Origin: Ulva prolifera
Taxonomy: Eukaryota; Chlorophyta; Ulvophyceae; Ulvales; Ulvaceae
Direction of reading: 5' to 3'
Assembly: GCA_023078555.1 (NCBI GenBank)
Contig: CM041199.1
Span: 2,662,513-2,726,512 of the forward strand
DNA: 64,000 bases
This document shows positions 1 through 59,202 of this stretch, piece after piece. Numbering within the stretch: position 1 is the stretch's first letter; every line of letters begins with the position of its first letter. The notes beneath the pieces are model-generated. The model saw nothing but the letters and a program-made list of their open reading frames with translations, did not search any database and was not told the origin of the DNA. The translations under genes and the position numbers were made by a program.

Positions 1-185
1 GCTGCTGGCCATGGGCGTTCGTGAGTCTGCTCCGAGGTGGGCCTTCTCCTGGACAATGGTGCCTCGTCAGCATGCATGACTCGTCAGTCTCCTCTGAGCA
101 TGCCGTGAAGCTGCTGATGCGCTGGCAGCTATGCTTGGACCTTCGACCAGACTCATACAAATCCGGTTGCTTTGTTCCTTTGCTT
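1..185 (+). pseudogene. Damaged 3' part of an exon that is intact at 35180-35533
   Basis: Aligned with 35341-35523, this stretch carries about six single-base differences and indels (for example ATGGGCGTTCG against ATGGCGTGCGG, GACCTTCG against GACTTCG). They break the frame that is fully open in the other copy. The errors stop near base 170 and the following 23 kb is almost identical. This clustering is what an unpolished long-read contig end looks like; a true decayed copy is less likely. The 5' part of the exon is absent because the window starts inside it. Confidence 0.6.
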
Positions 186-420
186 ACGTCAGTTCGTATA
201 TGTTGCCAGGCTCAGATGTTGAACCTTCTTACCACGTGCGGTATTATATGGTGGTCAGCATGCCATCTCGGCAATGAGGGGGAGAGATGCATGAGGTGTG
301 GTGGTGCCAGCCCACCGTGTGTCACGGGGTCAAAGACGGAGAGGCAGCAGACCCCAGAGCCCGCTGACTCCAGCCCGCCATGTGTCAGCGGGACACAGGC
401 AAAGCAAAGCATGAGCTGCA

Positions 421-813
421 GTGCTCCAGTTCCCGCTCGCAATGTCGGTGTTGGAAACCAGCAATTGTCCGCAGCCGCAGCAAGTACAAGCCACTCCATC
501 TGCTGTGGTGAGGTTTGATCCACATTACACTGTGAGTGCAGGGCTGGTGCTCAGAGACGGTCGCACATGGAGGGATCACCTGGGATATAACAAGGCACAC
601 GCTTGTGTGGGGGGTTCTGTATCACATCTGACTGCGATCGCCATCGTTGTGAAGGTCAAGGCACTTGTGCTTTTCTTTGTAGGGAACGCCTTGAGAGAGT
701 CGCCAAGTGAAGGATATGGGGCGGTGTCCACAAATGGACATCGAGAGTGCTTTATTGCAGTGCACAGGCTGCCAGGTGGCTATGTGCCACATGCCTTGTT
801 GTCAAGATTTTGA
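421..813 (+). CDS. Weak candidate coding exon(s), unknown product
   Basis: Open frame of 130 codons with a plausible stretch of protein (residues about 20-55, with VVRFDPHYTVSAGLVLRDG) and a possible second exon after the acceptor TTTGTAG near 680. A Cys-rich alternative frame (CTGCQVAMCHMPCC) overlaps its 3' part. No family is recognised and the splice pattern is not resolved. The sequence is rich in TG and CA, which makes Cys-rich frames by chance, so confidence is low. Same sequence at 35759-36151. Confidence 0.25.
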   Translation: MLQFPLAMSVLETSNCPQPQQVQATPSAVVRFDPHYTVSAGLVLRDGRTWRDHLGYNKAHACVGGSVSHLTAIAIVVKVKALVLFFVGNALRESPSEGYGAVSTNGHRECFIAVHRLPGGYVPHALLSRF

Positions 814-3410
814 CAGTTCCCAGTTCAATGTCCGTCGTTCTGGTGCTGGTACATGGTTCCTGTTTTCTCAGTGTTTCTGCCTTCTGCCCTGGCACTGAGC
901 ACCTTACGGTTGCCATTGTCACACATGATGTTTGAGATTGGATTAGAGTTGGAAGATGGCAACACCATTTTCATGCCGTCTGGAGCTTTGCCATGGTGCT
1001 GCAGGCTGTACGGCAATAGTGCAGGAGCTGTGTTTTGAAACGAGTGCACGTTGGGTGACATTCATAGAACAGTAAAGTGAAAGTTTCAAATTCTGTTGCA
1101 TGCGACCAGACATGTTATGCAGCGCGAGATTGTTCGCCTCAAGGGCTTGCCTTGCATTGTTTGCACGTACATGGCCCGTGTCTGTATCCTGCTTCTGCGA
1201 AAACACGGCAGATTCACCTGACTCAGGATGTTTCCGATTGTTTCTCCATGTGTCACATGCTGATGCGATTCACTCTGCACTATGTAGACCCGTGTTAGGT
1301 GGGGCTTCCAGCCATAGTCGGTTGTAGCAGTGAGTGATACTCTGGAGCTCTGTCCAATATTTACAGCGGTTCTGTCGTTGGATATGATCAGTGGTAAAGA
1401 ACACCTATATTGTCGTCTACATCATACTCGTATTGCAAAATGTCTTCACATGCACAGCAAACAGTCAATACGGGCAGTCGGATTTGAGGTCGAATGGTCT
1501 TACGTTCACTGCTAAGCTTCATCACAAGTACAAGGCTTTCAGCGTAGGTAGCAAAGGTTTTCATGTTTTCACTGATGAGCTGTAGCCCCTACATAACACC
1601 TTGCTGGACACATCAGCGGATGCAACAAGCAATTGTGGCAGATGCTGCAGACGAAAGGGGCATCGGTATTCAATCAATGGTGCCATCTTGACTCAACTCT
1701 ACAGCCAACCAGCAAATTGACTGAAATACCGCTCCAAACGGTCCACAGTTGTACATCCTCACATGGCACATGTGATTGTGCTCTAGACATTCAGCTCTAG
1801 AAATGTGCTCTAGACATTCAGCTTCCAATGAGAATCGCAGGATCAGAATCATTTGGCTGCGGTGGCAGGAAGCGTCGCTGTGTCTGATTGCAAGGTGATC
1901 GGGCGACGCTGGGCTATATCACAAACATCGCCCGCGAAGCAAGTGCACGAGATGAATCGCACATCGACCACGTGCAAGCCACAAAGCGGATTTGTGATGG
2001 GGCGAAGCTACCTGGGATGCTGTGCGCAGTGTGCCGTCTCTTTGCAATGGCATGCATGCTGAGCGGCGCGCCATCAGAACGTTGCTGACTGCCTTCTCCG
2101 GACCTGAAGCATCCGCCCAAGTACCCATTTCACGGTGCAGGCTCAACGTCCTCCGTTGACAAACAGCATTGTTGTCATCGCCCCGGAGTGACGCAAGTCC
2201 GGATACAGGTTACAGCCTGTCACTGAGCGATCGTAGGTGCTCTGGCTTTTGTCTCTCAAAGTGATTTTGATCTTCGATCCACTTCCTGAGTATCTGTGCA
2301 TCACGCCCCACGCAGTCCTTAGCTTTGAGGGCATCTCTCGCCCTGTCAGGGCTGCTGGATCTAGGGCTCCACCAGGAGGAATTCAGCGGGTGCGGACGCA
2401 CTCTTTCAGCTTCGATCTCATGTTGCTCAATTTGGATTTGTCAGTGTCACTAACAGACCTGCAAACACATGTGGCCAACAAAGTAGGGCACCTGGTGGCC
2501 TCCCATGATGACCATCTGACGTGCTTAATCTTAAGCGTGTTAATTTGGCCAACATGGTGACCGACAAATTTGATCAAATCGCATGCAAAGTCACTTGTAT
2601 GTAAATGTGACCCTAGACTTTGTCAACAAGTAGCGATTCTTGGGAGTGCTCACAGGGATCCCTGGTGTCAATTTGAGCATGGAGCGCTCAACAGCTCGAA
2701 GGTCTTCAACTTCAAAGGACTGCTCAGTGGGCGCTTTCAAACAAGGCTGCACCAAACGGCTGGGCTCAACGTCACACAAATCACGGGTCGTGGCTCTCGC
2801 GACAGGTCCGTCTATGTGAGGACTGCCAATAAACACACTAGCTTGTGAGCTTAGATTTTGATAGCATGTCATATGCATCTATTCGCGACCTCGTGTTGTC
2901 CTCTATACGATCCTTGCATTGTTGCCAACATTGCACATGGCATTTGCATGTTCAAGCTGTACAACACCGCCAATGCAATGATGTGTGGCGCGTCTTCGGC
3001 ACCATGCTTCGTAGCTTGTGGATTTGGCTGGTGGTCTCCCATAGACGGATCATGACCAGAGCAGTATCCAAGAGAAGATCTGGCTTCATGACATCATGTA
3101 CATTGCAATATTACGTGTTGAAATGGCCATGTAGTTTGGAGCAGCCTAAGCGATTAAGTATGGCTGCGTGCACATCCGTTCGCGTGCTGTGATGTCCTCA
3201 CCGTTGGGGCACTCACCGAGTTGCTATACGCTTCTCATCTCGCTTCACCCTCCGGTGCTCTTCATTGATATGTTGGTCCATGCACTCACATGTGGTGCAC
3301 TTCATGCAATTTCCTGGTCATCCACAAGTTACGGCATGTTCTTTTTGCTACTTCATCTTTGGACATGCCATATGTTGTGGTGAACTTGTGCCGTAAACTG
3401 TGATTCGCAG
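814..3410. other. Stretch with only weak coding signal
   Basis: No frame here is convincing. The best candidates are 1888-2088 (plus; an Asp/Arg/Glu-balanced stretch after GATTGCAAG) and overlapping opposite-strand frames at 2143-2560, where both strands are open and cannot be separated. A 27-bp-period direct duplication lies at 1777-1823. From about 3310 a frame in phase with the 3411 exon is open apart from a TGA at 3401-3403. The same content is at 36152-38748. Confidence 0.4.
1777..1823 (+). repeat. 20-bp direct duplication, 27-bp period
   Basis: Two perfect copies of a 20-base sequence containing CTCTAGACATTCAG at 1777-1796 and 1804-1823. Same at 37115-37161. Confidence 0.9.
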
Positions 3411-3614
3411 GTGCAGAGGTTGATAATGTACCAAAAGAATTCACATTCGAAGGACATGACCGTGGCGCGGAGCAACGGGTTGCCACTGTGCGCACTCAAC
3501 TGGACTCTACAGCTCTGCATCTGCTGCAAACCGATGCAGCATCTCACGACGATGAGCATACAAATGTGCAATCTGAGCAATTGTGCATGCTTTTGCAGCC
3601 CGTGCGCAATGAGG
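3411..3614 (+). CDS. Internal exon of a spliced gene, unknown product
   Basis: The exon follows GATTCGCAG (acceptor ending at 3410) and stops before the donor GGTATGAC (GT at 3615). Two bases precede the first full codon and one base follows the last, so both flanking introns would be phase 1. The 67 codons are open and have a balanced, charged composition (VPKEFTFEGHDRGAEQR, later HLLQTDAASHDDEHTN), unlike the Cys-rich chance frames nearby. It contains no in-frame ATG. It lies upstream of, and in the same orientation as, the repeat-protein gene at 4470-9044 and may be one of its 5' exons; that link is inferred. Copy at 38749-38952. Confidence 0.55.
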
Positions 3615-4469: not shown

Positions 4470-7400
4470 ATGCCCTGGGTACTTGAGCTTCAAGACGCAG
4501 AGCTGCCGAGGACAACAAATTTGGCGCAGACAGGATCAGACGTGGCAGCATTCGGAGCTGGACAGGATTCGGCCATGGCACGGCGTATACAGGTGATAGT
4601 TCGCTCTGCTTGCCGGAAATGGGGTTGGCGGACTTCTTCGATGCCCGAACGATCCCGCGGTGGTGCGGGGCCTTCTTCGGTGCCCGAAGGCACTCCTAGT
4701 GGTGTGGACATTGCCTCGCTGCCGGAAGACAATCCTACGGCTGTGGAAATTGGGTCGGTGCCCAAAGGCACTCCTACAGGTGTCGAAATTGCCTCGGTGC
4801 CCGAAGGCACTTCTGCAGGTGTCGGAATTGCCTCGGTGCCCGAAGGCACTTACACTGCAATGGAAATTGCCTCGGTGCCTGAAGGCACTCCTACAGGTGT
4901 CGAAATTGCCTCGGTGCCCGAAGGCACTCACACTGCTGTGGAAATTGCCTCGGACCCCGAAGGCATTCCCACTAGTGTGGAAATTGCCTCGGTATCGGAA
5001 GGTAAACCTAATGCTATGGAAGTTGCCTCGATACCTGAAGGAACTCCTGCTGCTGTGGAAATTGCCTCGGTGCCTGAAGGCAATCCTAGTGCTGTGGAAA
5101 TTGCCACGGTGCCGGAAGGTACTCCTGCTGTGGTGGGGCCGTCTTTGGTGCCTGAAGGTAGTCCTGCTGGCTTAGGGTCTTCACCGGTGGCAGAAGGTAC
5201 TCGAAAAGGTGCGGCATTCATGTATTTATTATTTCAAGACGACTTTGCTGGTCATGTATGAAGTGCTCAACGGCAAAGTGATACATGTGTTGTCAGCAAG
5301 ATGTGACCGGAAGTGATTTGTATCCTCAGTACAACATCTGTGTATAGTATGCACAGGGTGGCAAAGCCAGTCGAGTGACAATAATCCACATGCAGGGAAA
5401 CGCAGCCGTGACCGTCCAAACGAAGATGCTGGGGCGTTCAGCGTGCACATTGATTCGGTTCCTCACTGGAACAGTGCGGGGCTTCATATGCGGGCCCTGA
5501 AAAAGCGCAAGGTACATGCTGTGCATACATTACCATTGCCAAGTGGTCAAGCGATCCCGTCACAGATTACACATTCTCCAGTATACAACATCACTTCCGT
5601 GCACAACCTTGCAACAGCTATGATCACTACACAGGCTGGTACGGCTTACAACCTGTGTCAGCTTGTGCCAGATTGCAAAGCATGCAAAATTGCCACAAAC
5701 ATATACAAATTAAAAACCGCAGCTTAGAGCAAAGACGCTCTATGTCTGTGGCCAGTGTCACTTTCACATTGTTTTCCGCATCTGCACATGGTTTGCGGAA
5801 CCAGGCCTCATCCAAAAAAATTTTGATGCAGAGAACGAGGCAGCTACTGTGGAAAATGGAGATGATGCTACTGATGCACTACCGCCTTCAGCTCAAGCTG
5901 ATGGCGTCGGCCCAGAGGTGCAAAGCCCGCTCACTTACATGAACATGCTCGAGGGGAACATGACAGCAGCTGGATGCAGCAAATCCATTGCAGACGGTGC
6001 CCCCACCGCGAACGTCGCTGCCTTGGCGCGGAATAACAACCCTTTTATGCACTCAATGTCGCTTGGCATACACTCGTCCGCAACATATGACAGGGGAAAC
6101 GGGGCGAATGGAATTCTCGCCGCGAACAACATTGCCCTGCCACAAATCTTCAGCACACGCACACCAGTGTCGACAGCCAAGCCTGACGAAGTCGCAGCCG
6201 GCAGCGGCACTGTGGTGGCCGACTATGCCCCCAACCATGACAACGCCGACCTAGTCCAACACAATGGCCCTGGAACACCATTGAAAATCGCAGCAGACGA
6301 TGGTGGACACGTGATGCCTGGAACCCCTGAGGCAGTCAATACTACCCCACCACAAAACCGCAGCACACCCGGACCGGATTCGACAGCCATCGCTCATGCA
6401 ACTGCAGCTGGGCCTGGCTCTGTCGTGGCCAACTGCGCCCCCAACCATGACAGCGCTGACCCGGTTCAACACAACGGCCCAGGAATCCCATCAAACATCG
6501 CAATCGCAGACTCGCTTGCAGCAGATGATGGTGGAGATGCGATGCATGGAACCCCTGAGGCAGTCAATACTACCCCACCACAAAACCGCAGCACACCCGG
6601 ACCGGATTCGACAGCCATCGCTCATGCAACTGCAGCTGGGCCTGGCTCTGTCGTGGCCGACTGCGCCCCCAACCATGACAGCGCTGACCCGGTTCAACAC
6701 AAAGGCCCAGGAATCCCATCAAACATCGCAATCGCAGACTCGCTTGCAGCAGATGATGGTGGAGATGCGATGCATGGAACCCCTGAGGCAGTCAATACTA
6801 CCCCACCACAAAACCGCAGCACACCCGGACCGGATTCGACAGCCATCGCTCATGCAACTGCAGCTGGGCCTGGCTCTGTCGTGGCCAACTGCGCCCCCAA
6901 CCATGACAGCGCTGACCCGGTTCAACACAACGGCCCAGGAATCCCATCAAACATCGCAATCGCAGACTCGCTTGCAGCAGATGATGGTGGAGATGCGATG
7001 TATGGAACCCCTGAGGCAGTCAATACTACCCCACCACAAAACCGCAGCACACCCGGACCGGATTCGACAGCCATCGCTCATGCAACTGCAGCTGGGCCTG
7101 GCTCTGTCATGGCCGACTGCGCCCCCAACCATGACAGCGCTGACCCGGTTCAACACAAAGGCCCAGGAATCCCATCAAACATCGCAATCGCAGACTCGCT
7201 TGCAGCAGATGATGGTGGAGATGCGATGCATGGAACCCCTGAGGCAGTCAATCCTACCCCACCACAAAACCGCAGCACACCCGGACCGGTGTCGACAGCC
7301 ATCGCTCATGCAGCTGCAGCTGGGACTGGCTCTGTCGTGGCCAACTGCGCCCCCAACCATGACAGCGCTGACCCGGTTCAACACAACGGCCCAGGAATCC

Positions 7401-9044
7401 CATCAAACATCGCAATCGCAGACTCGCTTGCAGCAGATGATGGTGGAGATGCGATGCATGGAACCCCTGAGGCAGTCAATAATGCCGCAACACAAAACCG
7501 CAGCACACCCGGACCGGTGTCGACGGGCATCACCGCTGCGGCCGCAGCTGGCAACGGCGCAATTGTTGAAGGCCGCGTCCCTGCTAACGTAGCCGCCCCG
7601 CCGGTGAGCGGCGGTCCAGTCAATCCTTCGGCCACGCGTCAGGGAATGGCCGCCTCTGCAGGCGGCAGTGCCACCACACCTCAAGGTGCTCAGGTTGCTG
7701 GCGACGCCGCCCTTACTCTGCGTTGCTCACTGCCTCGGGTAAAAGTTGCTCCTGCGGCAGCCTTGAGGTCAAAGTGCCCAACCCACATGCATGATGATAT
7801 TTTACCACATGGCTTGTATGCTATAATCCACAACGTTCGGATGATGATGCATGGAGCAGCTGGGTTGCAACTGCCTGTGTTCCTGCCGTATACGGACTTT
7901 GTGCTGCAAGTATGTATGCCAGAGGAGTGGGGGTCAGCAAGAAATGCAGCCGCGACATCTGGCCCGAGATCCGGAAACACCTTCGCACAGGTGTCAACAA
8001 GCAAAGCAGCGGGGTTTGTAGCTGATACATCTCTAGCCGACATGAAGAGGATCAGACTTGAAATGTCCAAGGCGCGTTCTCTGCCGTTGTGTGTCCTCCC
8101 TACATGTTCCTACATGTTCCCTTGCCAACACGGCTGTGACAACACGGCAATGAGCAAGGCGATCAAAGCAAGATAACCACAATGTGTCCATACATGCAAG
8201 CACTCATGGCGAAAATCGGATTCTCCATATGATCAGGAGATTCCACGCTATTCTCGCAACACATACATGCACAAATGTCTGTCCGCATAAAGAAGCATTT
8301 GGACACGAGGAGAAGAGGGTATGAACAAAATTGCTTCTGTGCCTCCGCAATGTGAATGAAGTGGTTGTGGTGCAGGCAAAGCATGATGTCTTTGAAAAGA
8401 CTCGGCGATGTGTTCGAAGAGTTCAGAAATCTGGATTCATTCCAGAGCCGGTACAGCGCAGACTGCATGAGATTGATTCAACGCTCGCCGAGCACTATAA
8501 AGCAGTGCTGGCGTTTTTGGGCGTTTCGTGGGGTGCGCAAGCTGCAGTTCTGAAGGAAACCAAAGTTACAGCAGATGACCTGCTGAAATATGGCCGTGCT
8601 ATCGCAGCGATGTGTGCCGCCAGAATCACAAATGTCACCGGCGATCACGAAAGCATGGTCAAACTCAAGCGGGATTGCATCCGTACCAGAGCGCTCGCAA
8701 TGAAGATGTTCAATGGCAGCCCACCGCCGGGACTGCCGGTTCCTCCTGCAGACGAGGACAGCCCTTGGTTGAATGATGCAATGTGGCGCGCCGTGGAAGG
8801 CAGTGCCATGTTGTGAACGTGTCTGGAGTGGGTCTGCATACGGCTGCCTGGAGAGGTACCAGTGAGCGGACGCTTCAACATGATATACCACAGTGATGTG
8901 CTCAGGATATGATATGTAATAGTACCACGGGGAATTTCAGTGGCGAAGAAATTGGCACTCACCGCCTGCGACGCAGACGCTGCTGCGGCTCCCGAGGCGG
9001 CGCTCGTCAGTGCCGCAAACGGTCTCGCAGGGCAGCTCACATGA
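4470..9044 (+). CDS. Five-exon gene for a two-array repeat protein, unknown function
   Basis: Exons: up to 5208 (open from 4470; true 5' end unknown), 5396-5511, 5723-7909, 8376-8802 and 8941-9044. Phases match at every join (1, 0, 0, 1) with GT-AG ends: AAAAG|GTGCGG, CGCAAG|GTACAT, CTGCAA|GTATGT, GGCA|GTGCCA. Protein order: a basic region, about 14 units of a 13-residue S-V-P-E-G-T repeat, a Lys/Arg-rich piece (KRSRDR), a CGQCHFH patch, about six 76-residue Ala/Pro/Asn-rich repeats, then a mixed domain ending in SPWLNDAMW. The stop is TGA at 9042. Low-complexity arrays followed by a conserved compact end suggest a surface or scaffold protein, but that is inference. The end domain has a paralogue at 25853-26283, which supports the start of exon four. 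No known family recognised. Confidence 0.7.
4638..5208 (+). repeat. 39-bp coding minisatellite (13-residue SVPEGT repeat)
   Basis: About 14.6 tandem units of 39 bp, entirely in frame. The unit reads roughly S-V-P-E-G-T-P-x-x-V-E-I-A; the first unit (SMPERSRGG...) is divergent and the last is cut by the donor at 5208/5209. Units differ mostly at residues 7-10, so the array is not freshly duplicated. Opposite-strand frames across it are shadows caused by the repeat length being divisible by three. Copy at 39976-40546. Confidence 0.9.
6210..7560 (+). repeat. 228-bp coding tandem repeat (76 residues)
   Basis: Five nearly identical 228-bp units preceded by a shorter, diverged unit and followed by a diverging one, all in the frame of the 5723-7909 exon. 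Each unit includes NRSTPGP, APNHDSADPVQH and DSLAADDGGDAM. Units alternate between two types (ANC...QHN and ADC...QHK), showing growth by dimers of 456 bp. Nucleotide identity between units is very high, so the array was recently homogenised. Copy at 41548-42898, with one Gly to Asp change. Confidence 0.92.
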
Positions 9045-11418: not shown

Positions 11419-13239
11419 AAATTTCACTGACGGAGAGGTTGAATGCGTTCGACATGTATTTTACCGAAAGGCTCCTGTCGAGCAGCTGCTGCATGCCTGG
11501 CTACAGGATGGTTGCAATGCATGAACCCTCACCTGGCACAGGCATATCCATGTGGGCAGGTAGCACCGTATCCACCCACTCAACACAGCCACTCAATGGT
11601 ACACTTAGCTCGCCAGGTGCCGCAGCTGCCTCCTTGGACTTTGTGTTTGTTGGCGTGCAATACTCAAGATTCAGCACTGCTGGCTCATGCAACAGTCAAA
11701 AACAATGATTCTGCGTGTTGCAGCACATTGCAGGCGTACGTTGGCAGTGGTTACTGTATGTACGTGAGACACCAGTATTGCCGCCAGGTCAAAGCCGGAG
11801 AAGCAGATATATCAGCAGGAGAGAGAGATAGCACAGCAGGATTGGCAGACACCAATCACGCCAGCTGACCGGCTGGATCCACTGGCCACAACTTGCAACA
11901 TTGAGAGCAGTATGTATATGTCATGTCATAGATCAGCGATACATCGATGCTTGGATCTGTGGATTAAGCACAGTTCGTACGGTAAAGGGCGCTCGTCACA
12001 GGGTAGCACCTTCCGTATACTAGGAAGAACCACACAGCGCAATGTACTGTGTAAGCACATTACAATTGCAACACGAGCTGCAACACGCCGTTACTTGACG
12101 TGCCCCGACCTTGGCAGGGCCACTGCCGTAGTTTATCTCAGGGATGCAGCTGTCTGGTGCGACGACTTTACAACAGGGACGTCAGTATTGCCAATTCCGT
12201 GTCCCCAGGCAGCAAACTGCTGAATCGAAACAGGACAGGACCACACCGACAGACACATTCACGCCGACAGGTGACCAAAGAGACAAACGTGTGTCCCGTG
12301 CGGCAAATCACGCTGCTCTTGATGTACCCTGTTGGTACCTGAAACACACAACGCAGGATAGGAACGGAACTCATGCTCGGACGCGGTACCTACAGAGCTC
12401 GTAACTATTCCGAAAGCGTGACAAGTGTTATCGAGATGTCAAAATGGCTACCAGGTCCCTGAAGACCTGGAGTGTCTGGGGTCATGGCTGTGCGTCTCTT
12501 GTGTTGTTATCTTGCTTTGTGCAACAGATGTTACGATTGCGAAACGGTCACTTGTAATGGGTCACTCAGGCTGATGTGGTCAAGATTCACCGTGCTGCGC
12601 AGATTATCACGAAACGTCAAGGCCATTGCAATAAGCATCAGTAATATTCTGATATTCATCCTTCTGCCACCGGATTCAAGCAACGTGAAAGTGTGTCGCC
12701 AATAGGTTCTCGAGGTCCGCTTCTGTGACACGAGGCTGCCACACACGATAGGGACGGTTCCGAAGGGACCTCACCTGTCCGAAAGTCGTCTCACATCAAT
12801 GAATGAAATGCTTTTACGTCGCGGGCTGCACCGTCAGTGGTATCCGCAGTGATTACCAGGCGCTCTCTGTGTGTTCGTGTGCTTTGAGATCGACGTGCTA
12901 GGCTGTGCCAGGCGAGCAGTCACAACAGCGACACCAGAGGCTTGACACGGTCCTTGCAGGAACAGATACATTTGTCACAAGATTCTCCCAATTGCTGATT
13001 TCAGATTCGGTGCGTGGTACTGTGGACATATCGGACAGGCTCAACACAGAGGCTCCACATCAATCCTGATAGGTTACAACTGGCCACAAAGACTTGACAC
13101 ACGTTCAGAAGTCTTCAAAATGCCTTGTGCTGGAGATGAGGTGCTGGCAATCAAGCGTTGCTACTGCTTTGTATGCTGTGCAGCGGACATCAACTTCAGG
13201 CTCATTCTCTGGCACAGATTTGGCACCACTTGACTTGGC
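11419..13239. other. No firmly supported gene
   Basis: Overlapping open frames at 11376-11868 and 11912-12404 conflict with each other. Two stretches, near 11770-11880 and 12175-12290, resemble each other weakly (both have a CAGTATTGCC core and an ACGCC end), which may be an old duplication. The rest up to 13239 shows nothing I can support. Same at 46757-48577. Confidence 0.35.
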
Positions 13240-14946
13240 GTGCTGCTATTGTGTGGCGACAACTGTTTGGATGTTGGAAGCATGCAGGATGCAACTCAGG
13301 GAGGGACCTCGGCGTCGAAGTCGGGTTGCATGGGAGGAGCTACAGTGGCAGAGCGGCAAGACATAATGGCCCGTGAACAGTATTTGGAAATGGTAGAGGA
13401 AAACTTGGTGTTCGGCGGCAATGAAGCAATGTTAGGAAAGACTGAACTCATGTACCTCCAGCGGCAAAACGAAAACTCTCAGTCACCACATGCTGACTGT
13501 GCCGAACACACACAAGCCGTGTGCAAAACACGAAATGTGATGCAGAAATTGAAGAGTTCCCCAAGATGGAGCGCATGACCCACGACACAAGCGCACCAGG
13601 GTTAAGCAATGCATCGTTTGGATCCAGTTTCGAAGTGAACATCGACCACGAGCAGAACACACAGGCTGACAAAATTGACAATGAGGTCGCTATGCGTGAG
13701 CTGGGCGCTGCTGGAAAGGTGGAGAGAATAATGGGTGAGCTGGCCTCCGCAACTGCAAAGAAAGAGATGCTCAGCAGCAATCTGGCTGATGCTGCTGGAA
13801 GGGAGGAGACGATGAAAGGCAAGCTGACCGCTGCTGGTGCAGAGAGGGACAAGCTGAACCACAAGCTGGCCGCAATTGCTGCAGACAGGAGGACACTGAT
13901 GAGCAAGCCTGCCGCTGCAGCCGAAAGGACAGTCGCCCTGGAGATCGAGTTGTCTGCTTGAGCTATCAGGGAAGAAAATATGAAGGCGAAACTGATCATA
14001 GCTACTGCAAAGAAAGAGCTGCTGAAGAGCGTGGTTGCTGCAGCTGCAGAGATCGAAGAGGATGTAAAGGGCGAGCTGACTGCCGCTACAGATTGGAACG
14101 AGATGTTTGAGGAGCATCTGGCAACAGCCCATGAGATGACATGCGTGAGCAAGTGGGAGCACAAGCGGAGTGGTGCAGAGCGTCCAGCAGGCGGATCTGC
14201 ATGTCGGAAACAGGAGGAAGGTCCATATGACGCGTCAAACAAAGGTGAGGCTCAGCCCCTGAGTCACCAGCCGAGTTGGCGCACTCCAGCCAAGGTGCAT
14301 GATCACTGACCACCTGTCTATTGCATATATGTATGTAGAAAATGAGTTATACAAGACAATGGAAGGCTGGGCGAACAATGCTGGTGTGCACATCACCGAC
14401 CAGACTCCAGACCTCTTGGACAGTGGGAAGGTGAACCTGCAAACTGATGCAGCGAATGCCGAGATAGAATGCCTCAAACCAGAACAGTTCTCACTTACCG
14501 AAAGCAGTTTGAAGGCCCAGGAGCAGCAAAAGGAAAGAGTGTTGGATGTGGAATGCCATCACAATCACATCAAGTGGGCACACGGGCACAACAAATCAAA
14601 CTCACAGGTTGACCTTGGCACAACGGCAAATCCATGCATAATGTATTTCAATGGGCTTTTCAGTGTTGAGGCTTGTGATCAGGCAAGAGAGCAATGCATT
14701 CTTCAGAACGAGGAACAAGACGCGGCCGGCGACACGACTCAAGCGAGACTTCGGAACCAGGTTATCGCGGTTGAAGAAAGGTTGAGTCGCTTCAGGCCGG
14801 GCTTCAGGCGTCATGTTCTTGCATGTCAGTATGTTGAACCTAATTCGGACGTTGGCCAACTGCATGTCGCCCATTTTGAGGTCGAACACAGCTCTGCATG
14901 CACTGCTGCCGATCACCTTGCATTCACACACAGCGACGCATGCTGA
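13240..14946 (+). CDS. Coiled-coil protein gene with 14-residue repeats and one internal stop
   Basis: Upstream codons (13240 to about 13500) are charged and helix-prone in one frame; the main part is in another frame from about 13500, so an intron or a frameshift lies between. From about codon 13728 the protein is ten consecutive 14-residue units, each with Leu or Val at position 6 and Ala at 7-9 (MGELASATAKKE, MKGKLTAAGAERD). Unit six has TGA (13959-13961) at position 9, where the other units have Ala or Ile, and the register continues unbroken behind it. A strong donor AACAAAG|GTGAGG (14245) and acceptor ATGTATGTAG (14338) join phase 1 to an exon starting ENELYKTMEGW, ending at TGA 14944. 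A structural coiled-coil role is likely; no family is named. Copy at 48578-50284. Confidence 0.6.
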
Positions 14947-15348
14947 CACTGCAGCAACATGTTTTTGACCCTACAAGGTCCATCGTACGATGATTGTCTA
15001 GAGCATCCTCCTGTGCAAGTTGTAGCAGTGAGTCCACAATCAGCACTTCCGATCTACGTTCAACCGTGCAGCATAGCTCACTGAATTCCATAGCTGGGAG
15101 AGTCATTCGACTGGACACGTTGACAGGTCGGGAAATCGCTCTAGTTTTCCAAACTGCGGTAGCATTCAATCGGCCACAGCACGCAGACAGGAACTGACAC
15201 ACTGGTTGCTCTCAAGACTACAACCTTTCATAGCCATGGCGACCCACATAGGACAGAACTCGCAACAAAGGCTGTGTGCCAGGACACACCCCAACCTTGT
15301 GGCTACAACTGGAACGAAGGTGCTTTGATGTGAAGACATCTCTACCGC
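14947..15348. other. No supported gene
   Basis: Only short frames broken by TGA and TAG. Nothing else recognised. Same at 50285-50686. Confidence 0.4.
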
Positions 15349-15858
15349 ATGCACGATGTGGCAGTAATCTCATTGCTAGGTGCATGGCCGCAAGGCTTGA
15401 CGAAGTTCCATGTTGTTCTTCGTTTAAGGATTCTCTCTACTGTGAAGAACAGCATGGGTGACAGCGCGGACATTCTCTGGATGGAGCACAGCAAATATCA
15501 CTATTTGGCTTGGAATATCGTCCCTGGTTGCGCACTGCTTACATCAAGGGTACTACTGTTGGGGCTGCAGGACATTCCCATGTACTCAGTGCTGTAGAAA
15601 TGTGCACGTTTGAAAGCAGGGATAGAGTGGGAGTGTTACACATGCGATGGTTTCCGCACGACAATGCATGTCTTGGTGACCAATACAGCTGCTGCGGTTG
15701 GTCACCACGCCGGAGCCACACCTTGTCGACTCCATAGTGCTGATCTCCCGCCGGATGTGCACGTGGGATGTCCTTGGTGCAGTCTCCGCGTCCGATGTGC
15801 TCAGCCGTTTGAACATCCTTGCCACACCTTCGGGACTGCGGAACAAGCTGTGGCCTAG
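15349..15858 (+). CDS. Two in-frame coding-like segments, one Cys/His-rich
   Basis: Segment one (15349-15597) has a convincing mixed composition (VKNSMGDSADILWMEHSKYH). After a TAG at 15595 the same frame continues at 15610 with WECYTCDGF and later GCPWCSLRVRCAQPF plus EHPCH, two CxxC pairs that could bind zinc. A competing frame (GTTVGAAGHSHVLSAVEMC) overlaps. The region is immediately upstream of the paralogous block at 15880. Treat as a candidate only. Copy at 50687-51196. Confidence 0.35.
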
Positions 15859-15879
15859 CAGCAGCAGTGCTGCCAGGAA

Positions 15880-16435
15880 GTATTTGCAGTCTCAGGCACG
15901 CCATTACACACTGCACATCCCACAGCTTCGGCACAGCAGCTCGGTAAGACCACATTCCAAACGAGTCTGTACTCGACCCGAACGTGTCTGTACATGTTGT
16001 CCAGCACATATGGTGCGAAGTGGTGTCTCAGAAGTGAAAAATCTCAAGTTGAAGTGCTCGATGCTTCTTTAAGAGTGTCAACAAACCACACTCACTGGTG
16101 CTGCTCCTCCTTGTGCTGTCACCGGACCAGTCAGCTCAGTAAAAGTGACAGTAGAGGACATGAGCTGTGCCATAAATTCATCACTCACAGGAAACTCTGT
16201 TGGAATCGATAAGCAAGGGCTGAGGCTCACAGTCGAAGAAATGATCACGCGGGATGTATGAGAACCACTGACCAGGCATTTCTAGGACATGCTACAAACA
16301 TGCAATTAGCCGTGGCAACACCAGCTCAGTATAGATCCATATCCGGGTGCTACATGGGTGTGTTGAAAGTTGCACCCACCTGAAATTTGATGTCATGTTC
16401 TGGACCATATTGATGCGTACCATACATATAACCCG
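15880..16435 (+). pseudogene. Diverged paralogous block, copy 1 (frame broken)
   Basis: Aligns over about 550 bases with 17480-18070, with matching landmarks in order: QSQARHYTLH/QYQACQFMLQ, a GTAAGACCAC/GTCAGACCAC donor-like site, GCTCGATGCTTCTTTAAGA/GCTCAATGATTCTTTGAAA, GID...LRL/GVD...LRL, CTGACCAGGCA, and GCACCCACCTGA. Relative to copy 2 it has a two-base insertion just before CTGACCAGGCA plus a TGA, so the reading frame is broken here. Copy at 51218-51773. Confidence 0.55.
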
Positions 16436-17479
16436 CCAGCCAAGCAACATACAACTGCAACTTCTTTATCGAATGATGTTGTTCCGATGTGCCCTTTCAG
16501 AAGCCAGGGCATAGCTTGCAAGGATGTGTGCCCCGTATGCTGTACAGCCTCCGCATTGCAGATGAGTACTCACCTCAGCGAAACAAAATGCAGTTTTTCT
16601 TGTTGTGATTGGTCGCCGACTGGGCTGCTGCAAGGCGGTTTTTACATTCCTTTGTACACAAGTGGAGATTGGTGTTGCAGGCACGGCAGAGTGCACTGTG
16701 TGTGGCATTGGGCAAAGCCGGCAAGGTAGAATCCAGTAGCAAGACAATGCTGTCAGACACCCGTGGACTGTAAATTTCACGGCACGACATAGCCTGGAGC
16801 TGTACTTACGTCCAGGACCGATGCCACGGACAAATGGTGCTGAAGCAAGAGTCCGGTGCGTCCTGACTGGTGCCCCGACAATGACCTGCAGTATCCGGGA
16901 ACGACCTCCTTACTTGTCCTTTGCTGATGACTCACGGACCTGGCAGCCCGCAAGCGTCACTGAAGCTAAGCACTGTGCAGCAGCCCGCCCTACGAGCCAG
17001 ATGACCCGTGAATCTACATGCAACATTGAGGTGACATGGCATATCATGACGACAGACTGGGTACTCGTGCATGCAGTCGGGTAGCATCTCGCTGGCATCA
17101 GAAGCAACCTTTCAGCATCAAGAGCATCGTGCAAGTTTTGGTGAACAAGCGATGTAATTTCGCCTACCGAAACATCACTCTGACAAAACCCTGCCAGAAG
17201 TATGCCAAGGCGGAGCCCATGCACTGTTCCTAGCTTCGATTTGGTCAACAGAAGTGAAGTATGATCTATCCCGGCTGTGCTGATGTACCACACCTTCACC
17301 TCGTCAGGGTGCTTGCCAATGGTGGAGAGCTCCAGTGGACACATTTCAAGCCTTCATCCGCGCAAACCCATATCTCGCAGACATGCAGCCTCCGTACGGC
17401 CACATCATTTGGAAGTACCGTTCTTGGAATGTAATGTCACACTGCAAAAACCGGGTTCATCAGACGCTTGCGTCGGCGA
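16436..17479. other. No firmly supported gene
   Basis: Open frames on both strands (16466-16780 minus, 16910-17344 minus, 17277-17657 plus) overlap and none stands out. Same at 51774-52817. Confidence 0.35.
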
Positions 17480-18070
17480 AAGGTCTGCTTCTCTCAATTC
17501 TCAATATCAGGCATGCCAGTTTATGCTGCAGGTCTGCTCCACAGGTTTGCCGCCCCGGCTCAGGTCAGACCACAATGTAGTTCAGATGAAGCTGCACTCA
17601 GTTTGGGTGACTTTGCAGATGACTCGCATGCATATATGGTATGAGCTGGTATCTTAGTGGTGCTTCTTTGCAAGTGCTCAATGATTCTTTGAAACGTGTC
17701 AACAACGAATCGCTCACCGCTAATGCTCGCCCTTGTGATGTCAAAGATCCAGCCAGATGACAATTCAGACTATGCCTGGCGCAGACATACATGAGATGTG
17801 CTATGGCTGCAGCACTTTCGACACATCTTTTGGAGTGGATGTACATAGTCTGAGGCTGAGACTCGAAAGGAAGACCATTCGGAGGGCGTATGTACGTGCT
17901 GACCAGGCATACATGGGTCGAGCTGCATGTCATGCATCTGTCTTTGATGGAGCACAATCTGGCACCGCAACTCAGTATGAATACACGTCAGAGAAGTGCA
18001 GGTGAATGATGAAAACCGCACCCACCTGAGATCAAACTGAGGCTTTTTCTGGTCCGTGTCGACGGTGCAA
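17480..18070 (+). repeat. Diverged paralogous block, copy 2
   Basis: Partner of 15880-16435, about 1.6 kb away in the same orientation. It keeps an open frame (17757-18001) where copy 1 is broken. The shared GCACCCACCTGA lies inside the predicted intron of copy 2 and may be a conserved branch-point region. Copy at 52818-53408. Confidence 0.6.
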
Positions 18071-18211
18071 TGCATCACAAATGGCTCTTACCAACCAGAA
18101 ACTGGGCTCTTGCAGCTTCTTCCTGTGCCTGGCAAGTCATTAAGCTGCTGATATTGGGGCTGGCAAGCGGCCCTGCCGTAGAGGCAGTCCAAAAGGCTTC
18201 ACTGAAGCGAG
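17757..18211 (+). CDS. Two-exon segment of a spliced gene, unknown product
   Basis: Exon 17757-18001 ends at AAGTGCAG|GTGAAT in phase 2; the next exon starts at 18099 after CTTACCAACCAG with the one base needed to complete an Arg codon, and ends at CGAG|GTACAA (18211). Exon one carries VDVHSLRLRLERKTIRRAY; exon two carries WALAASSCAWQVIKLLILG, a short amphipathic to hydrophobic stretch. Exon one has a broken paralogue at 15880-16435. The 5' start is not resolved because the frame changes just upstream of 17757. Copy at 53095-53549. Confidence 0.5.
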
Positions 18212-18420
18212 GTACAAACACCGCGACACCAGAACTTGGATAGACATCTCGACATGCTAGAGGCATGTAATGGTGTGACTGGTCGGCCCTGTTTCAGATC
18301 CATACCTTCACTGTGTGGTCTGACTGTTCTGACTGTCACGCTGCTCCGTTGTTCAATGCGCTATGAGACAAGGACATTGCAATCAAGGCGTTGTGTGCAT
18401 AGAGCATGTATATGCTGCAG

Positions 18421-18522
18421 CTGGCGCAGCGGGAGCGCATCGCAGCTGGTGAGGACATGGAGGCACCGCGAACGATTGGGGGTTCCCATGCATCGTGGGT
18501 GAAGCCAGCACGTCCAGCCTGA
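18421..18522 (+). CDS. Candidate terminal exon, 33 codons
   Basis: Follows ATATGCTGCAG and reads LAQRERIAAGEDMEAP... to a TGA at 18520, a strongly coding-like, charged stretch. The frame upstream is also coding-like but has TAG and TGA. It could join in phase 0 to 18099-18135 if an alternative donor (CTGGCAA|GTCATT) is used. Copy at 53759-53860. Confidence 0.35.
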   Translation: MAQRERIAAGEDMEAPRTIGGSHASWVKPARPA

Positions 18523-18729
18523 CGGTGCTTCATGCGCAATGGCGGTAGCGGCATTTTCATCTGCTGAGTCAGACATCGAGTAGATCCCTTTCACCGGAGC
18601 CCGGCGGTGACAGACGCAATAGTGCAGTGGCTCCGCCCTGGCAACTGCTGGCAGTGTCCTGTGTGATCACATGCCATATCACGTCAACGTAGGTGTTGCC
18701 TGTAGATGTATGGGTCATCTGGCTTGCAG

Positions 18730-19326
18730 GAAGAGCTTTCTGCGCTTACTAACGATTCAGGGAAGAGTTTTGCGCCGTTCGTGCATGAGCTCTCTACGAC
18801 CCAGCTTCGAAACTTCCTGTCAACCCACCAGCCCCCGTCAGAAGCTGACACACATTGCAGTGATGATAGATCAACAACGCTTGCAGCTGTGATTGCTACC
18901 AAATGTTGGACGGGAACGCTACGGGCGCCAGTGCATGTGGGCGCATGCGTGGCCCTGCTGCTGTGAGTGGATGCTCGAGTGTAAGGGGCGCCACTGACTG
19001 CAGACATCATCGCTTCCGTACAACAGCTAAAGAAGAGGTCTGTAAAGATTGCTTTGTTGGGATATGGCTGGGAGCACACACCACATGTACACTTTCACGA
19101 ACCGACACATAACACACTGAGCCAAAGTTGCTGCTTAGTCTTGTCTGAGGAGACCAAGGAACAGGAGAGAAAGAACCCGAGTACAGGTGTTTGCAAGTCC
19201 GAGGTGCGGAACCCGCATGCGCCCCGTGAATGTCAATGAACAGTGGCCTGCAGCTATAGCATTGCTGCAGCGATGATCATGTCCATTTGCACTGACACTA
19301 TCACAGGGCTAAAAACTCAATTTTAG
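18730..19326 (+). CDS. Three-exon 3' end of a spliced gene, unknown product
   Basis: Exon 18730-18962 starts after GGCTTGCAG (EELSALTNDSGKSFAPF) and ends at a consensus GTGAGT. Exon 19004-19186 starts after GACTGCAG and reads DIIASVQQLKKRSVKIALLG, then HVHFHEPTHNT, ending ACAG|GTGTTT in phase 1. Exon 19271-19326 starts after TTGCTGCAG with the two bases needed and ends in TAG. The last join is phase-correct. The first join (41-base intron) is off by one base, so either another splice site is used or the copy carries an indel. No domain recognised. Copy at 54068-54664. Confidence 0.5.
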
Positions 19327-20644
19327 GTGGCACAATTGAGTCTGTTGTGGTGACATATTTGTTTGCTGAACTTGGCGTCCCAGCATGTTGTGTCTCTCAG
19401 TGTGATGTGATGGTCATCAAGCATGAAGTGTGAGCAGGTTTAATGGCCCATCGAGGACAACCCAAAGGCCCACCGTCTAGAGCCACACCGCAAGAATCAT
19501 TGCCGATCTGGGCGCTTCCACCAGCGCTTCTGCAGAGTCGTGCAGCCTCCGGGGCTTCCTGACAGGTGTTGAGTGCTGACAACAAGCAGCGCTGTTGTAG
19601 TGATGTCATCTGGGCACACATACACACACCTAGAAGCAGCATCTATCATCTCAGCTCTACTTGAATCAATAGCACAGAGATTGTAGAGCGTCGTTGCGCA
19701 GAGTTGCTCAGAGTGTAGAGATTGTCGACTGTTTTTTGCGCCCCAGTGCTACATGGATCTCTAGGCTGGACCGCGCTTGGCCACATAATATTCGCCAGCC
19801 TTTACCTTGTGACCGAAGGTCCGTGTGTGAAAATTCCTCGCATTTGCAGAATGTATTGTGATCCGTCTGTCTGGACATGGACATGCTTCGCACGCTGCTG
19901 GAACCTGACTTTTGTGATGGCAAAGCATTACCATCCTCAAAACTGTACAACCTCACACAATTCTAAACCCCAAAAAACAGTTGGGAGCTGATGCCTTGCT
20001 TTGTGTAAGAGACATTGATATTTGGTCATCCCACAGCAATCATGAAAGGATAGTGTGTTTCGATAGAAGTTGTTTGGAAAACTGTCTGGTCGCAGAAATC
20101 ACTGCTGGTGTGTGCATGTCGAGGAAAGACACATACGATATTCCCTGTGTGTTGTTGCGGATTGCTGACAGTGCTGCTAGGATCGGTGCGGTAGCCTGCT
20201 ACGTTCAGCTTGCTAGCTTCTGGGCTGCTCGTTATACGATCGTTATACGATCGCTCGAGCTTTGCTGCTACCTGTGACTGGGGTGTGTTTTGCTGTGCAG
20301 GTGCACTGAAACATGTTGTAAATCTTGTTGCTGCATGCTGGCAGTGCGGTGTTGCTTGCCGTTGCCCTTGCCACACGAAATTCTGCAGCAGGTGCAGGGG
20401 AAGTGCTCGGCATGGTGTGAGACTGGTCAAAGATTTACATACATGATTCCGTGGAAGTCTGCACATGCCCGAATCTGGGTCTGCAGCTTACCCGGCCAGA
20501 AACCTCAGATCCGCTCCTTCCCGCCTGCCCCCGCCGGCTGACCCTATCTGCTGGCAGCCGTCTTGACCTGGGCTTGTCAGTATTCACAGATCTGCTACAG
20601 GGTCTATTGCAATGCTGGGCGGTGTATGAACATGTCAATAGATA
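19327..20644. other. Interval between convergent genes; no supported gene
   Basis: Separates the plus-strand gene ending at 19326 from the minus-strand LRR gene ending at 20645. A minus-strand frame at 19397-19642 and Cys-rich plus-strand frames at 20210-20541 are open but unconvincing. An 11-bp tandem duplication lies at 20231-20252. Same at 54665-55982. Confidence 0.45.
20231..20252 (+). repeat. 11-bp tandem duplication
   Basis: GTTATACGATC twice in a row. Same at 55569-55590. Confidence 0.9.
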
Positions 20645-39807: not shown

Positions 39808-42800
39808 ATGCCCTGGGTACTTGAGCTTCAAGACGCAGAGCTGCCGAGGACAACAAATTTGGCGCAGACAGGATCAGACGTGGCAGCATTCGGAGCTGGA
39901 CAGGATTCGGCCATGGCACGGCGTATACAGGTGATAGTTCGCTCTGCTTGCCGGAAATGGGGTTGGCGGACTTCTTCGATGCCCGAACGATCCCGCGGTG
40001 GTGCGGGGCCTTCTTCGGTGCCCGAAGGCACTCCTAGTGGTGTGGACATTGCCTCGCTGCCGGAAGACAATCCTACGGCTGTGGAAATTGGGTCGGTGCC
40101 CAAAGGCACTCCTACAGGTGTCGAAATTGCCTCGGTGCCCGAAGGCACTTCTGCAGGTGTCGGAATTGCCTCGGTGCCCGAAGGCACTTACACTGCAATG
40201 GAAATTGCCTCGGTGCCTGAAGGCACTCCTACAGGTGTCGAAATTGCCTCGGTGCCCGAAGGCACTCACACTGCTGTGGAAATTGCCTCGGACCCCGAAG
40301 GCATTCCCACTAGTGTGGAAATTGCCTCGGTATCGGAAGGTAAACCTAATGCTATGGAAGTTGCCTCGATACCTGAAGGAACTCCTGCTGCTGTGGAAAT
40401 TGCCTCGGTGCCTGAAGGCAATCCTAGTGCTGTGGAAATTGCCACGGTGCCGGAAGGTACTCCTGCTGTGGTGGGGCCGTCTTTGGTGCCTGAAGGTAGT
40501 CCTGCTGGCTTAGGGTCTTCACCGGTGGCAGAAGGTACTCGAAAAGGTGCGGCATTCATGTATTTATTATTTCAAGACGACTTTGCTGGTCATGTATGAA
40601 GTGCTCAACGGCAAAGTGATACATGTGTTGTCAGCAAGATGTGACCGGAAGTGATTTGTATCCTCAGTACAACATCTGTGTATAGTATGCACAGGGTGGC
40701 AAAGCCAGTCGAGTGACAATAATCCACATGCAGGGAAACGCAGCCGTGACCGTCCAAACGAAGATGCTGGGGCGTTCAGCGTGCACATTGATTCGGTTCC
40801 TCACTGGAACAGTGCGGGGCTTCATATGCGGGCCCTGAAAAAGCGCAAGGTACATGCTGTGCATACATTACCATTGCCAAGTGGTCAAGCGATCCCGTCA
40901 CAGATTACACATTCTCCAGTATACAACATCACTTCCGTGCACAACCTTGCAACAGCTATGATCACTACACAGGCTGGTACGGCTTACAACCTGTGTCAGC
41001 TTGTGCCAGATTGCAAAGCATGCAAAATTGCCACAAACATATACAAATTAAAAACCGCAGCTTAGAGCAAAGACGCTCTATGTCTGTGGCCAGTGTCACT
41101 TTCACATTGTTTTCCGCATCTGCACATGGTTTGCGGAACCAGGCCTCATCCAAAAAAATTTTGATGCAGAGAACGAGGCAGCTACTGTGGAAAATGGAGA
41201 TGATGCTACTGATGCACTACCGCCTTCAGCTCAAGCTGATGGCGTCGGCCCAGAGGTGCAAAGCCCGCTCACTTACATGAACATGCTCGAGGGGAACATG
41301 ACAGCAGCTGGATGCAGCAAATCCATTGCAGACGGTGCCCCCACCGCGAACGTCGCTGCCTTGGCGCGGAATAACAACCCTTTTATGCACTCAATGTCGC
41401 TTGGCATACACTCGTCCGCAACATATGACAGGGGAAACGGGGCGAATGGAATTCTCGCCGCGAACAACATTGCCCTGCCACAAATCTTCAGCACACGCAC
41501 ACCAGTGTCGACAGCCAAGCCTGACGAAGTCGCAGCCGGCAGCGGCACTGTGGTGGCCGACTATGCCCCCAACCATGACAACGCCGACCTAGTCCAACAC
41601 AATGGCCCTGGAACACCATTGAAAATCGCAGCAGACGATGGTGGACACGTGATGCCTGGAACCCCTGAGGCAGTCAATACTACCCCACCACAAAACCGCA
41701 GCACACCCGGACCGGATTCGACAGCCATCGCTCATGCAACTGCAGCTGGGCCTGGCTCTGTCGTGGCCAACTGCGCCCCCAACCATGACAGCGCTGACCC
41801 GGTTCAACACAACGGCCCAGGAATCCCATCAAACATCGCAATCGCAGACTCGCTTGCAGCAGATGATGGTGGAGATGCGATGCATGGAACCCCTGAGGCA
41901 GTCAATACTACCCCACCACAAAACCGCAGCACACCCGGACCGGATTCGACAGCCATCGCTCATGCAACTGCAGCTGGGCCTGGCTCTGTCGTGGCCGACT
42001 GCGCCCCCAACCATGACAGCGCTGACCCGGTTCAACACAAAGGCCCAGGAATCCCATCAAACATCGCAATCGCAGACTCGCTTGCAGCAGATGATGGTGG
42101 AGATGCGATGCATGGAACCCCTGAGGCAGTCAATACTACCCCACCACAAAACCGCAGCACACCCGGACCGGATTCGACAGCCATCGCTCATGCAACTGCA
42201 GCTGGGCCTGGCTCTGTCGTGGCCAACTGCGCCCCCAACCATGACAGCGCTGACCCGGTTCAACACAACGGCCCAGGAATCCCATCAAACATCGCAATCG
42301 CAGACTCGCTTGCAGCAGATGATGGTGGAGATGCGATGTATGGAACCCCTGAGGCAGTCAATACTACCCCACCACAAAACCGCAGCACACCCGGACCGGA
42401 TTCGACAGCCATCGCTCATGCAACTGCAGCTGGGCCTGGCTCTGTCATGGCCGACTGCGCCCCCAACCATGACAGCGCTGACCCGGTTCAACACAAAGGC
42501 CCAGGAATCCCATCAAACATCGCAATCGCAGACTCGCTTGCAGCAGATGATGGTGGAGATGCGATGCATGGAACCCCTGAGGCAGTCAATCCTACCCCAC
42601 CACAAAACCGCAGCACACCCGGACCGGTGTCGACAGCCATCGCTCATGCAGCTGCAGCTGGGACTGGCTCTGTCGTGGCCAACTGCGCCCCCAACCATGA
42701 CAGCGCTGACCCGGTTCAACACAACGGCCCAGGAATCCCATCAAACATCGCAATCGCAGACTCGCTTGCAGCAGATGATGATGGAGATGCGATGCATGGA

Positions 42801-44382
42801 ACCCCTGAGGCAGTCAATAATGCCGCAACACAAAACCGCAGCACACCCGGACCGGTGTCGACGGGCATCACCGCTGCGGCCGCAGCTGGCAACGGCGCAA
42901 TTGTTGAAGGCCGCGTCCCTGCTAACGTAGCCGCCCCGCCGGTGAGCGGCGGTCCAGTCAATCCTTCGGCCACGCGTCAGGGAATGGCCGCCTCTGCAGG
43001 CGGCAGTGCCACCACACCTCAAGGTGCTCAGGTTGCTGGCGACGCCGCCCTTACTCTGCGTTGCTCACTGCCTCGGGTAAAAGTTGCTCCTGCGGCAGCC
43101 TTGAGGTCAAAGTGCCCAACCCACATGCATGATGATATTTTACCACATGGCTTGTATGCTATAATCCACAACGTTCGGATGATGATGCATGGAGCAGCTG
43201 GGTTGCAACTGCCTGTGTTCCTGCCGTATACGGACTTTGTGCTGCAAGTATGTATGCCAGAGGAGTGGGGGTCAGCAAGAAATGCAGCCGCGACATCTGG
43301 CCCGAGATCCGGAAACACCTTCGCACAGGTGTCAACAAGCAAAGCAGCGGGGTTTGTAGCTGATACATCTCTAGCCGACATGAAGAGGATCAGACTTGAA
43401 ATGTCCAAGGCGCGTTCTCTGCCGTTGTGTGTCCTCCCTACATGTTCCTACATGTTCCCTTGCCAACACGGCTGTGACAACACGGCAATGAGCAAGGCGA
43501 TCAAAGCAAGATAACCACAATGTGTCCATACATGCAAGCACTCATGGCGAAAATCGGATTCTCCATATGATCAGGAGATTCCACGCTATTCTCGCAACAC
43601 ATACATGCACAAATGTCTGTCCGCATAAAGAAGCATTTGGACACGAGGAGAAGAGGGTATGAACAAAATTGCTTCTGTGCCTCCGCAATGTGAATGAAGT
43701 GGTTGTGGTGCAGGCAAAGCATGATGTCTTTGAAAAGACTCGGCGATGTGTTCGAAGAGTTCAGAAATCTGGATTCATTCCAGAGCCGGTACAGCGCAGA
43801 CTGCATGAGATTGATTCAACGCTCGCCGAGCACTATAAAGCAGTGCTGGCGTTTTTGGGCGTTTCGTGGGGTGCGCAAGCTGCAGTTCTGAAGGAAACCA
43901 AAGTTACAGCAGATGACCTGCTGAAATATGGCCGTGCTATCGCAGCGATGTGTGCCGCCAGAATCACAAATGTCACCGGCGATCACGAAAGCATGGTCAA
44001 ACTCAAGCGGGATTGCATCCGTACCAGAGCGCTCGCAATGAAGATGTTCAATGGCAGCCCACCGCCGGGACTGCCGGTTCCTCCTGCAGACGAGGACAGC
44101 CCTTGGTTGAATGATGCAATGTGGCGCGCCGTGGAAGGCAGTGCCATGTTGTGAACGTGTCTGGAGTGGGTCTGCATACGGCTGCCTGGAGAGGTACCAG
44201 TGAGCGGACGCTTCAACATGATATACCACAGTGATGTGCTCAGGATATGATATGTAATAGTACCACGGGGAATTTCAGTGGCGAAGAAATTGGCACTCAC
44301 CGCCTGCGACGCAGACGCTGCTGCGGCTCCCGAGGCGGCGCTCGTCAGTGCCGCAAACGGTCTCGCAGGGCAGCTCACATGA
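39808..44382 (+). CDS. Second copy of the five-exon repeat-protein gene
   Basis: Exons up to 40546, 40734-40849, 41061-43247, 43714-44140 and 44279-44382. The only change seen against the first copy is Gly to Asp in the last 76-residue unit (42781 G to A). If both copies are real the genome has two nearly identical genes. Confidence 0.65.
39976..40546 (+). repeat. Second copy of the 39-bp coding minisatellite
   Basis: Same unit number and order as at 4638-5208; no difference in the translated array. Confidence 0.9.
41548..42898 (+). repeat. Second copy of the 228-bp coding tandem repeat
   Basis: Same unit number and the same alternating unit types as at 6210-7560, with the one substitution at 42781. 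Arrays like this normally change unit number quickly, so the equality argues for very recent or artefactual duplication. Confidence 0.92.
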
Positions 44383-57923: not shown

Positions 57924-58978
57924 CTGCAGAGCTTCAAACTTTGTGCAATTTTGTGTTCCTTACATGCCTCACAGTGAGGTAGCACGTAGCACGTAGCACC
58001 ACGGGACAGCGGGTAGCAGAAGAACAGGAACAATCGCACAGCCTGGAGTGCTGCAAGCGTGACCGCGTCTCCGACTGCCAAGTAGCTGGCAGGCCCTGGG
58101 GGGTGAGGAGGGGTATGTGTCACATATGCATGCATGCATGCGCCGGCCTCCGCAGCAAGAAGGTAGTTGAAGAACGAGTGCACCTGGAGCCTAGCAGCGC
58201 ATGCTCCTGGACTGAGTTCATCCGCGGCACTGAAGCGCGTTGCACCATGCTGGACATTTGGCGACGCTTGTGGTTTGGGATTAGAAGCATCACCTGGGAA
58301 TGCTAGCCTCATCAGCGCAAGGCTGGAGCGCTGAACAGCTTCCTGGTCATCAAAGAAATCCGCGGCCTCCACAGCTGAAGTTCTACTGCCGCAAGAGCTG
58401 TGGATGCATGAGCTTGTTGTGTCTCATTCTCAGTGCAGCTGCTGTCCTTCAGTCGGATCAGGAAGCACTGGTGCCAAGCAATGCATGTCAAATCTACAGA
58501 GCCCTGAGTCATGTACCGCCTATTTGTTCTTGCTTCCATGTTTGGCGACCCAAGCTGTTCTGCATATGCTAAGGACTATGACGACTGACCGGCAGACTCA
58601 GCTGCACATTGAGCGTAGGGTGATGGTGTATGCCTGTGCTGGCGCACAGATCAGTACGTGCGCGGCACACATACAGCACACCCGAGATCACCACTCTGGC
58701 ATTCGGGATCACACGGCTCTTAATTTTGAGTATCGTGACGCATGTATGGCAGGGACTATGGCTGCCAAGTTTCAACTTCAGCTGCTGCACATCGAGTGCA
58801 TGTTGCTGGTGTGTGCTTGTGCTGGCACACAACACGGCAAATCTGCGGCACTTGTACAGCACACACGTTTAGGCGGTGACCGCACTGGCTTGCCGTGCGC
58901 CCAGATGGCTGGCTTTGCACTCGGCGTGCCGCGACATTGGCGACGCCCTAGCCGTGCAATTTGCGTTTCGCCCGCCGT

Positions 58979-59048
<70 letters not shown>

Positions 59049-59175
59049 GGGGGGGGGGGGGGGGGGGGGGTTGGGGAGGGGGGGGGGGTTGGGGTGGGGG
59101 GGTGGGTGGTTGTTGGGGTGGTGATATGTTGGTGGTTGGGTGGGGTGGGGGTGGTGGTGGGGTGGGTTGCGGTTT
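58979..59175 (+). repeat. Poly-G tract (69 G) plus noisy G-rich tail, second copy
   Basis: 69 uninterrupted G (58979-59047), then about 130 bases of G runs broken by single T or A, very unlike the short G/T sequence that follows the first poly-G. The remaining 22 bases before the gap match the first copy again (CTTGCTAGGGCTTTGCGGA). The tail looks like polymerase slippage or base-calling noise. Confidence 0.9.
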
Positions 59176-59202
59176 GGTCCTGCCTTGCTAGGGCTTTGCG
59201 GA

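Follow-up and report, generated by a model that had tools for sequence, protein, structure and literature searches.

A 23.7-kb repeat on contig C4 of Ulva prolifera is probably one sequence printed three times over a tandem duplication

The first 59,202 bases of a 64,000-nucleotide stretch of the Ulva prolifera genome, hereafter called the window, form a contig composed of a segment A, a segment B, and an almost identical second copy of A, named A'. This arrangement probably represents a chromosomal tandem duplication that the assembly failed to resolve, with A being a single consensus printed three times. The near-identity of A and A' is most likely not evidence of unusual biology, and the duplication beneath the repeat is probably an ordinary one. 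Taken at face value, the locus would yield spurious gene copies and would wrongly suggest extreme concerted evolution. The window corresponds to C4:2662513–2726512 of an 88.9-Mb assembly that comprises 44 contigs, and 100 kb were fetched on each side of it. It contains the following features:

1–23669, plus strand: A, first printing, delimited by self-alignment; position 1 is the start of the contig
4677–5130, plus strand: 39-bp tandem array in A; the same array is at 40015–40468 in A'
6290–7531, plus strand: 228-bp tandem array in A, containing position 7443; the same array is at 41628–42869 in A'
23094–25310, plus strand: dispersed repeat element extending across the A/B join, with the poly-G inside it
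23641–23669, plus strand: poly-G of 29 bases at the A/B boundary, 17 bases ahead of the 20-mer
23670–35340, plus strand: B, between the printings of A; relatives start at C4:10031943 and C4:10058946 (for 29337–35340) and lie at C4:2626960–2629144 (for 28554–30739, 97.5%)
23687–23706, plus strand: 20-mer at the start of B; three exact copies in the genome, each at the right end of a copy of A
35180–35557, plus strand: stop-to-stop open frame of 126 codons at the B/A' junction
35341–59202, plus strand: A', second printing, in the same contig as A; the aligned repeat ends at 59007 and the contig at 59202
58979–59182, plus strand: poly-G of 69 bases followed by 135 mostly G or T bases, at the end of A'
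59183–59202, plus strand: identical 20-mer, the final 20 bases of the contig, directly ahead of the 100-N gap
59203–59302, no strand: gap of 100 N
59303–64000, plus strand: start of the 169-bp satellite array, which continues past the window

The self-alignment of 1–23669 with 35341–59007 has 23,671 columns and an identity of 99.962%, with three mismatches and five gap openings, and the period of the A-B-A order is 35,340 bp. Between window positions 200 and 23600, A and A' differ in a single base (G/A at 7443, within the 228-bp array), whereas the divergence of other A or B copies is approximately 1–5%. The near-identity over 23.7 kb noted in the initial annotation of this DNA is therefore confirmed, as are the equal unit numbers of the two tandem arrays, which comprise 11.6 units of 39 bp and 5.4 units of 228 bp in both copies. 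The B/A' junction had been placed inside an open exon, and the 126-codon frame does cross it. A had been described as starting inside that same exon; it starts there, and position 1 follows a gap of 5,028 N, which means that the left flank is missing rather than demonstrably different. The description of A' as running through poly-G into a gap was accurate as to the poly-G and the gap, but 135 mostly G or T bases and then 20 bases of B (59183–59202, identical to 23687–23706) intervene.

A third copy, A0, is located to the left of the window at C4:2633654–2657484. It has a length of 23,831 bp and lies alone between two gaps, of 4,509 N on its left and 5,028 N on its right; the window starts immediately behind the latter gap. 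A0 and A start at one homologous base. Within approximately 32 bases of this start, they have four deviations in common (an extra G, two G-to-T changes, and a missing TG, at A positions 13, 19, 22, and about 32), and A', as well as the two copies P and Q from a second locus, agree against both of them there. A additionally carries private one-base insertions at 103, 140, and 167. On the right side, A0 and A' both stop exactly at the last base of the 20-mer. Their right ends consist of a G run (66 bases in A0, 69 in A'), mostly G or T bases (98 and 135, respectively), and the 20-mer; at the start of B, 17 bases separate the 29-G run from the 20-mer. A genome search identified exactly three copies of the 20-mer, at the contig ends of A0 and A' and at the start of B. 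The outer ends of A and A' are both gaps.

Paralogous copies were used as umpires of these differences: P and Q for A 1–1860, and a copy from the left flank for A 13144–21753. Ahead of the poly-G, 31 sites private to A0 were counted, with adjacent alignment columns grouped, and nine of them lie outside the umpire stretches. After one group was dropped as a slice-cut artefact, the tested set comprised 29 sites, four common to A0 and A, three private to A, and 22 private to A0. The paralog contradicts the deviating copy at every one of the 29 sites, including all 22 that are private to A0. Sixteen of these 22 are one-base indels, and the remaining six are substitutions or multi-base changes, which could be real variants. 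The error-like sites in A are confined to its first 167 bases, and A' has none ahead of the poly-G. A0 looks less like an allele than like a second printing that received too little polishing. The base-exact contig ends, together with the verdicts of the paralogs, show at the level of sequence comparison that A0 and A, at minimum, are not independent.

The second locus, at C4:10.03–10.09 Mb, is formed by contig P (10031943–10058944) and the sequence Q (from 10058946), with a single N between them. P and Q share their starting base. They match perfectly for 1,647 bases and at 99.46% for a further 19.4 kb; an alignment of the first 20 kb has 261 differing columns, of which 15 are substitutions. 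The last 986 bases of P equal Q up to 10085986, with approximately 5 kb of Q in between lying outside the comparison. Locus 2 appears to exhibit the A0/A assembly fault again, with P repeating the start of Q across a one-N gap. In the 324 kb scanned, two of the five N gaps lie between pieces with a common starting base. A gap is present between A0 and A (5,028 N) and between P and Q (1 N), and is absent between A and A'. Single-N gaps mark predicted overlaps, and assemblers of the Flye type print repeat edges at contig ends.

At locus 2, a roughly 24.8-kb insertion breaks up the copy of A at a position equivalent to approximately window 10178; it starts at C4:10041521 (L031) and C4:10068585 (L033). 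Its left end was read: the insertion begins with CACTA after GTA, and the flanking matches overlap by five bases. A 177-codon open frame within it matches Peptidase_C48 just over the cut-off. The insertion resembles a CACTA/EnSpm transposon. Adjoining locus 2, at C4:10020001–10028098 (L029), is a minisatellite of at least 8 kb, the minus strand of which reads as repeats like MEVNVQNGGQCPEWRSMS.

The shared ends, the shared deviations, the A0 sites contradicted by paralogs, and the P/Q pattern make it most likely that A is one piece printed three times. The contig of 1–59202 would pass once through a tandem duplication, reading A, B, and A again. A would have been too long to resolve, one consensus of it would have been kept, and this consensus would have been output three times, once by itself as A0 and once on each side of B. 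Scaffolding would then have placed A0 next to A-B-A' and inserted gaps. This account includes three inferences: A and A' share a single consensus instead of being separate loci, a real array of two or more A units underlies the cyclic order, and the assembler behaved in the manner outlined. Counting against this explanation, however, A, B, and A' form a single gapless contig, and A' ahead of the poly-G lacks the error-like differences seen in A0 close to that contig end, so that the printings would have been treated unalike; the nine A0-private sites outside the umpire stretches and the six possible real variants also weigh against it.

For each of the two joins in the cyclic order there is support from paralogs. 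At the B-to-A' join, P is continuous with window 29337–37198, with zero differences over 34883–35819, and Q is likewise continuous apart from a 71-base insertion near 30982. A rise in identity to locus 2 exactly at 35341 was considered and dropped, since the last preceding mismatch is at 34882. At the A-to-B join, six of the seven loci examined (L003–L008 of L002–L008) hold both parts of the dispersed element in the same order and orientation; at the seventh, L002, the match to the element extends only from 23827 on. Further genomic matches to both parts were listed beyond these seven loci. The candidate interpretation of the poly-G as a false join was rejected because a single dispersed element spans it. 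This element, 23094–25310, has well-defined ends, and its relatives vary in the number of inner partial copies, some of which are 183 bases apart.

Compared with the 35,340-bp unit, the 71 kb to the left of A0 give 33 matches with a length of 150 bases or more. They include 13144–21785 at 95.6% and 28554–30739 at 97.5%; many of the others are a 75-bp minisatellite, and some pieces are inverted. The left flank looks like an old, rearranged array. Its copy of B ends at the equivalent of 30739, which is 4,601 bases short of the A boundary and near the size of the 4,509-N gap, but the 5,028-N gap after A0 is too small for the remaining 11.6 kb of B, which counts against the single-piece explanation. 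According to one reading, A0 would be a misplaced extra printing. Window 17144–19643 has six mismatches in 2,500 aligned bases to the paralog at window coordinates −60348 to −51706, which is otherwise approximately 4% different, and this tract may be the product of gene conversion or of polishing cross-talk. Since near-identical tracts occur away from gaps, gene conversion may also act, which likewise counts against a single printed piece. Directly left of the diverged copy of B, at window coordinates −38945 to −35425 (C4 at about 2.624 Mb), the 75-bp minisatellite lies in a 1,304-codon open frame.

The same flank and joins have to be weighed in favour of a correctly assembled, very recent 35.3-kb tandem duplication or array, in which A, A', and perhaps A0 would be separate loci, alike because of their youth or gene conversion. 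The paralog support for both joins, the older relatives of A and B in the flank, and the near-identical tracts within a paralog all agree with such an array. We nevertheless consider it unlikely, given the base-exact contig ends and the deviations common to A0 and A, the one interior difference in 23.4 kb, and the same redundancy at locus 2. Still less probable is a real 35-kb array beside the 169-bp satellite, the 23.7-kb units and coding minisatellites of which would be strongly homogenised, with relatives approximately 1–5% different.

The repeat is direct, and its unit joins are supported by locus 2 (B to A') and by six of seven copies (A to B), with 12350–13143 and approximately 25501–28553 outside paralog coverage. 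A chimeric join in B or A could have produced a false cycle, in which case A would be single-copy and A-B-A' would have no genomic counterpart. The searches made provided no continuity-testing paralog for these two stretches, and the relation of B to the left-flank copy of the 75-bp minisatellite begins sharply at 28554; a collinear relative exists for all other stretches of the cycle, however, and we assign the chimera a slim chance.

A circle or a tandem repeat cut at one point had been put forward in the initial annotation, and the tandem half of this proposal fits, with its joins supported by paralogs. The A-B-A order, the 35,340-bp period, and the supported joins are also what would be expected of a 35.3-kb circle that existed free alongside the chromosome. 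Because degenerate pieces of A and B are present in the chromosomal flank, a tandem duplication explains the order without a circle; furthermore, locus 2 provides a chromosomal relative that runs through the B/A join, and nothing requires a circle, which makes one highly improbable. Least probable of all is the placement of two haplotype contigs of one locus side by side: false duplications from haplotypes are well described (PMC9516828), and some of the A0 differences are clean multi-base changes, but A and A' share a contig with B between them, and the tested A0-private sites are mostly one-base indels (16 of 22), all 22 being contradicted by the paralog. The earlier alternative of an assembler wrap or joined haplotype contigs is thereby retained in its first part, as one piece printed repeatedly explains the near-identity best, and weakened in its second.

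The proposed unresolved tandem duplication with a repeatedly printed A shares features with two known systems. The locus is like a chromosomal tandem segmental duplication in its direct order, its paralog-supported joins, and its older relatives in the flank. It is unlike one in its almost zero divergence, its base-exact shared contig ends, and the lack of independent outer flanks of A and A'; neither independent differences nor different outer flanks were found, as there is one interior difference and the outer ends are gaps. A study of false duplications (PMC9516828) reports that the copies are separated by gaps in the assembly and contain more erroneous k-mers. The locus is similar to the homotype false duplications of that account in having redundant pieces by gaps, one of which is richer in error-like differences (A0 versus A, and P versus Q). 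Unlike in those cases, A and A' occupy a single gapless contig, and a real duplication probably lies beneath.

None of 10 open frames of A and B searched against Pfam has a match above the curated cut-offs. The frame at 21317–22621 on the minus strand has weak leucine-rich-repeat matches below these cut-offs, and three other frames have weaker, chance-like matches. No tRNAs were detected by ARAGORN with the bacterial code, and no Rfam family matched at the gathering score. A genome search for the RuBisCO small subunit gave four matches on two contigs, all over the cut-off, as in a green alga or plant. A satellite query of 361 bases had 36 matches, all on C4, among the matches listed, for which two of the four candidates were scored and which do not include the window's own array; this list says little about other contigs. 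The 169-bp satellite itself self-aligns unbroken from window position 59303 to approximately 145027; the array, which adjoins the duplicated region, is 85 kb or more in length and is possibly a centromere.
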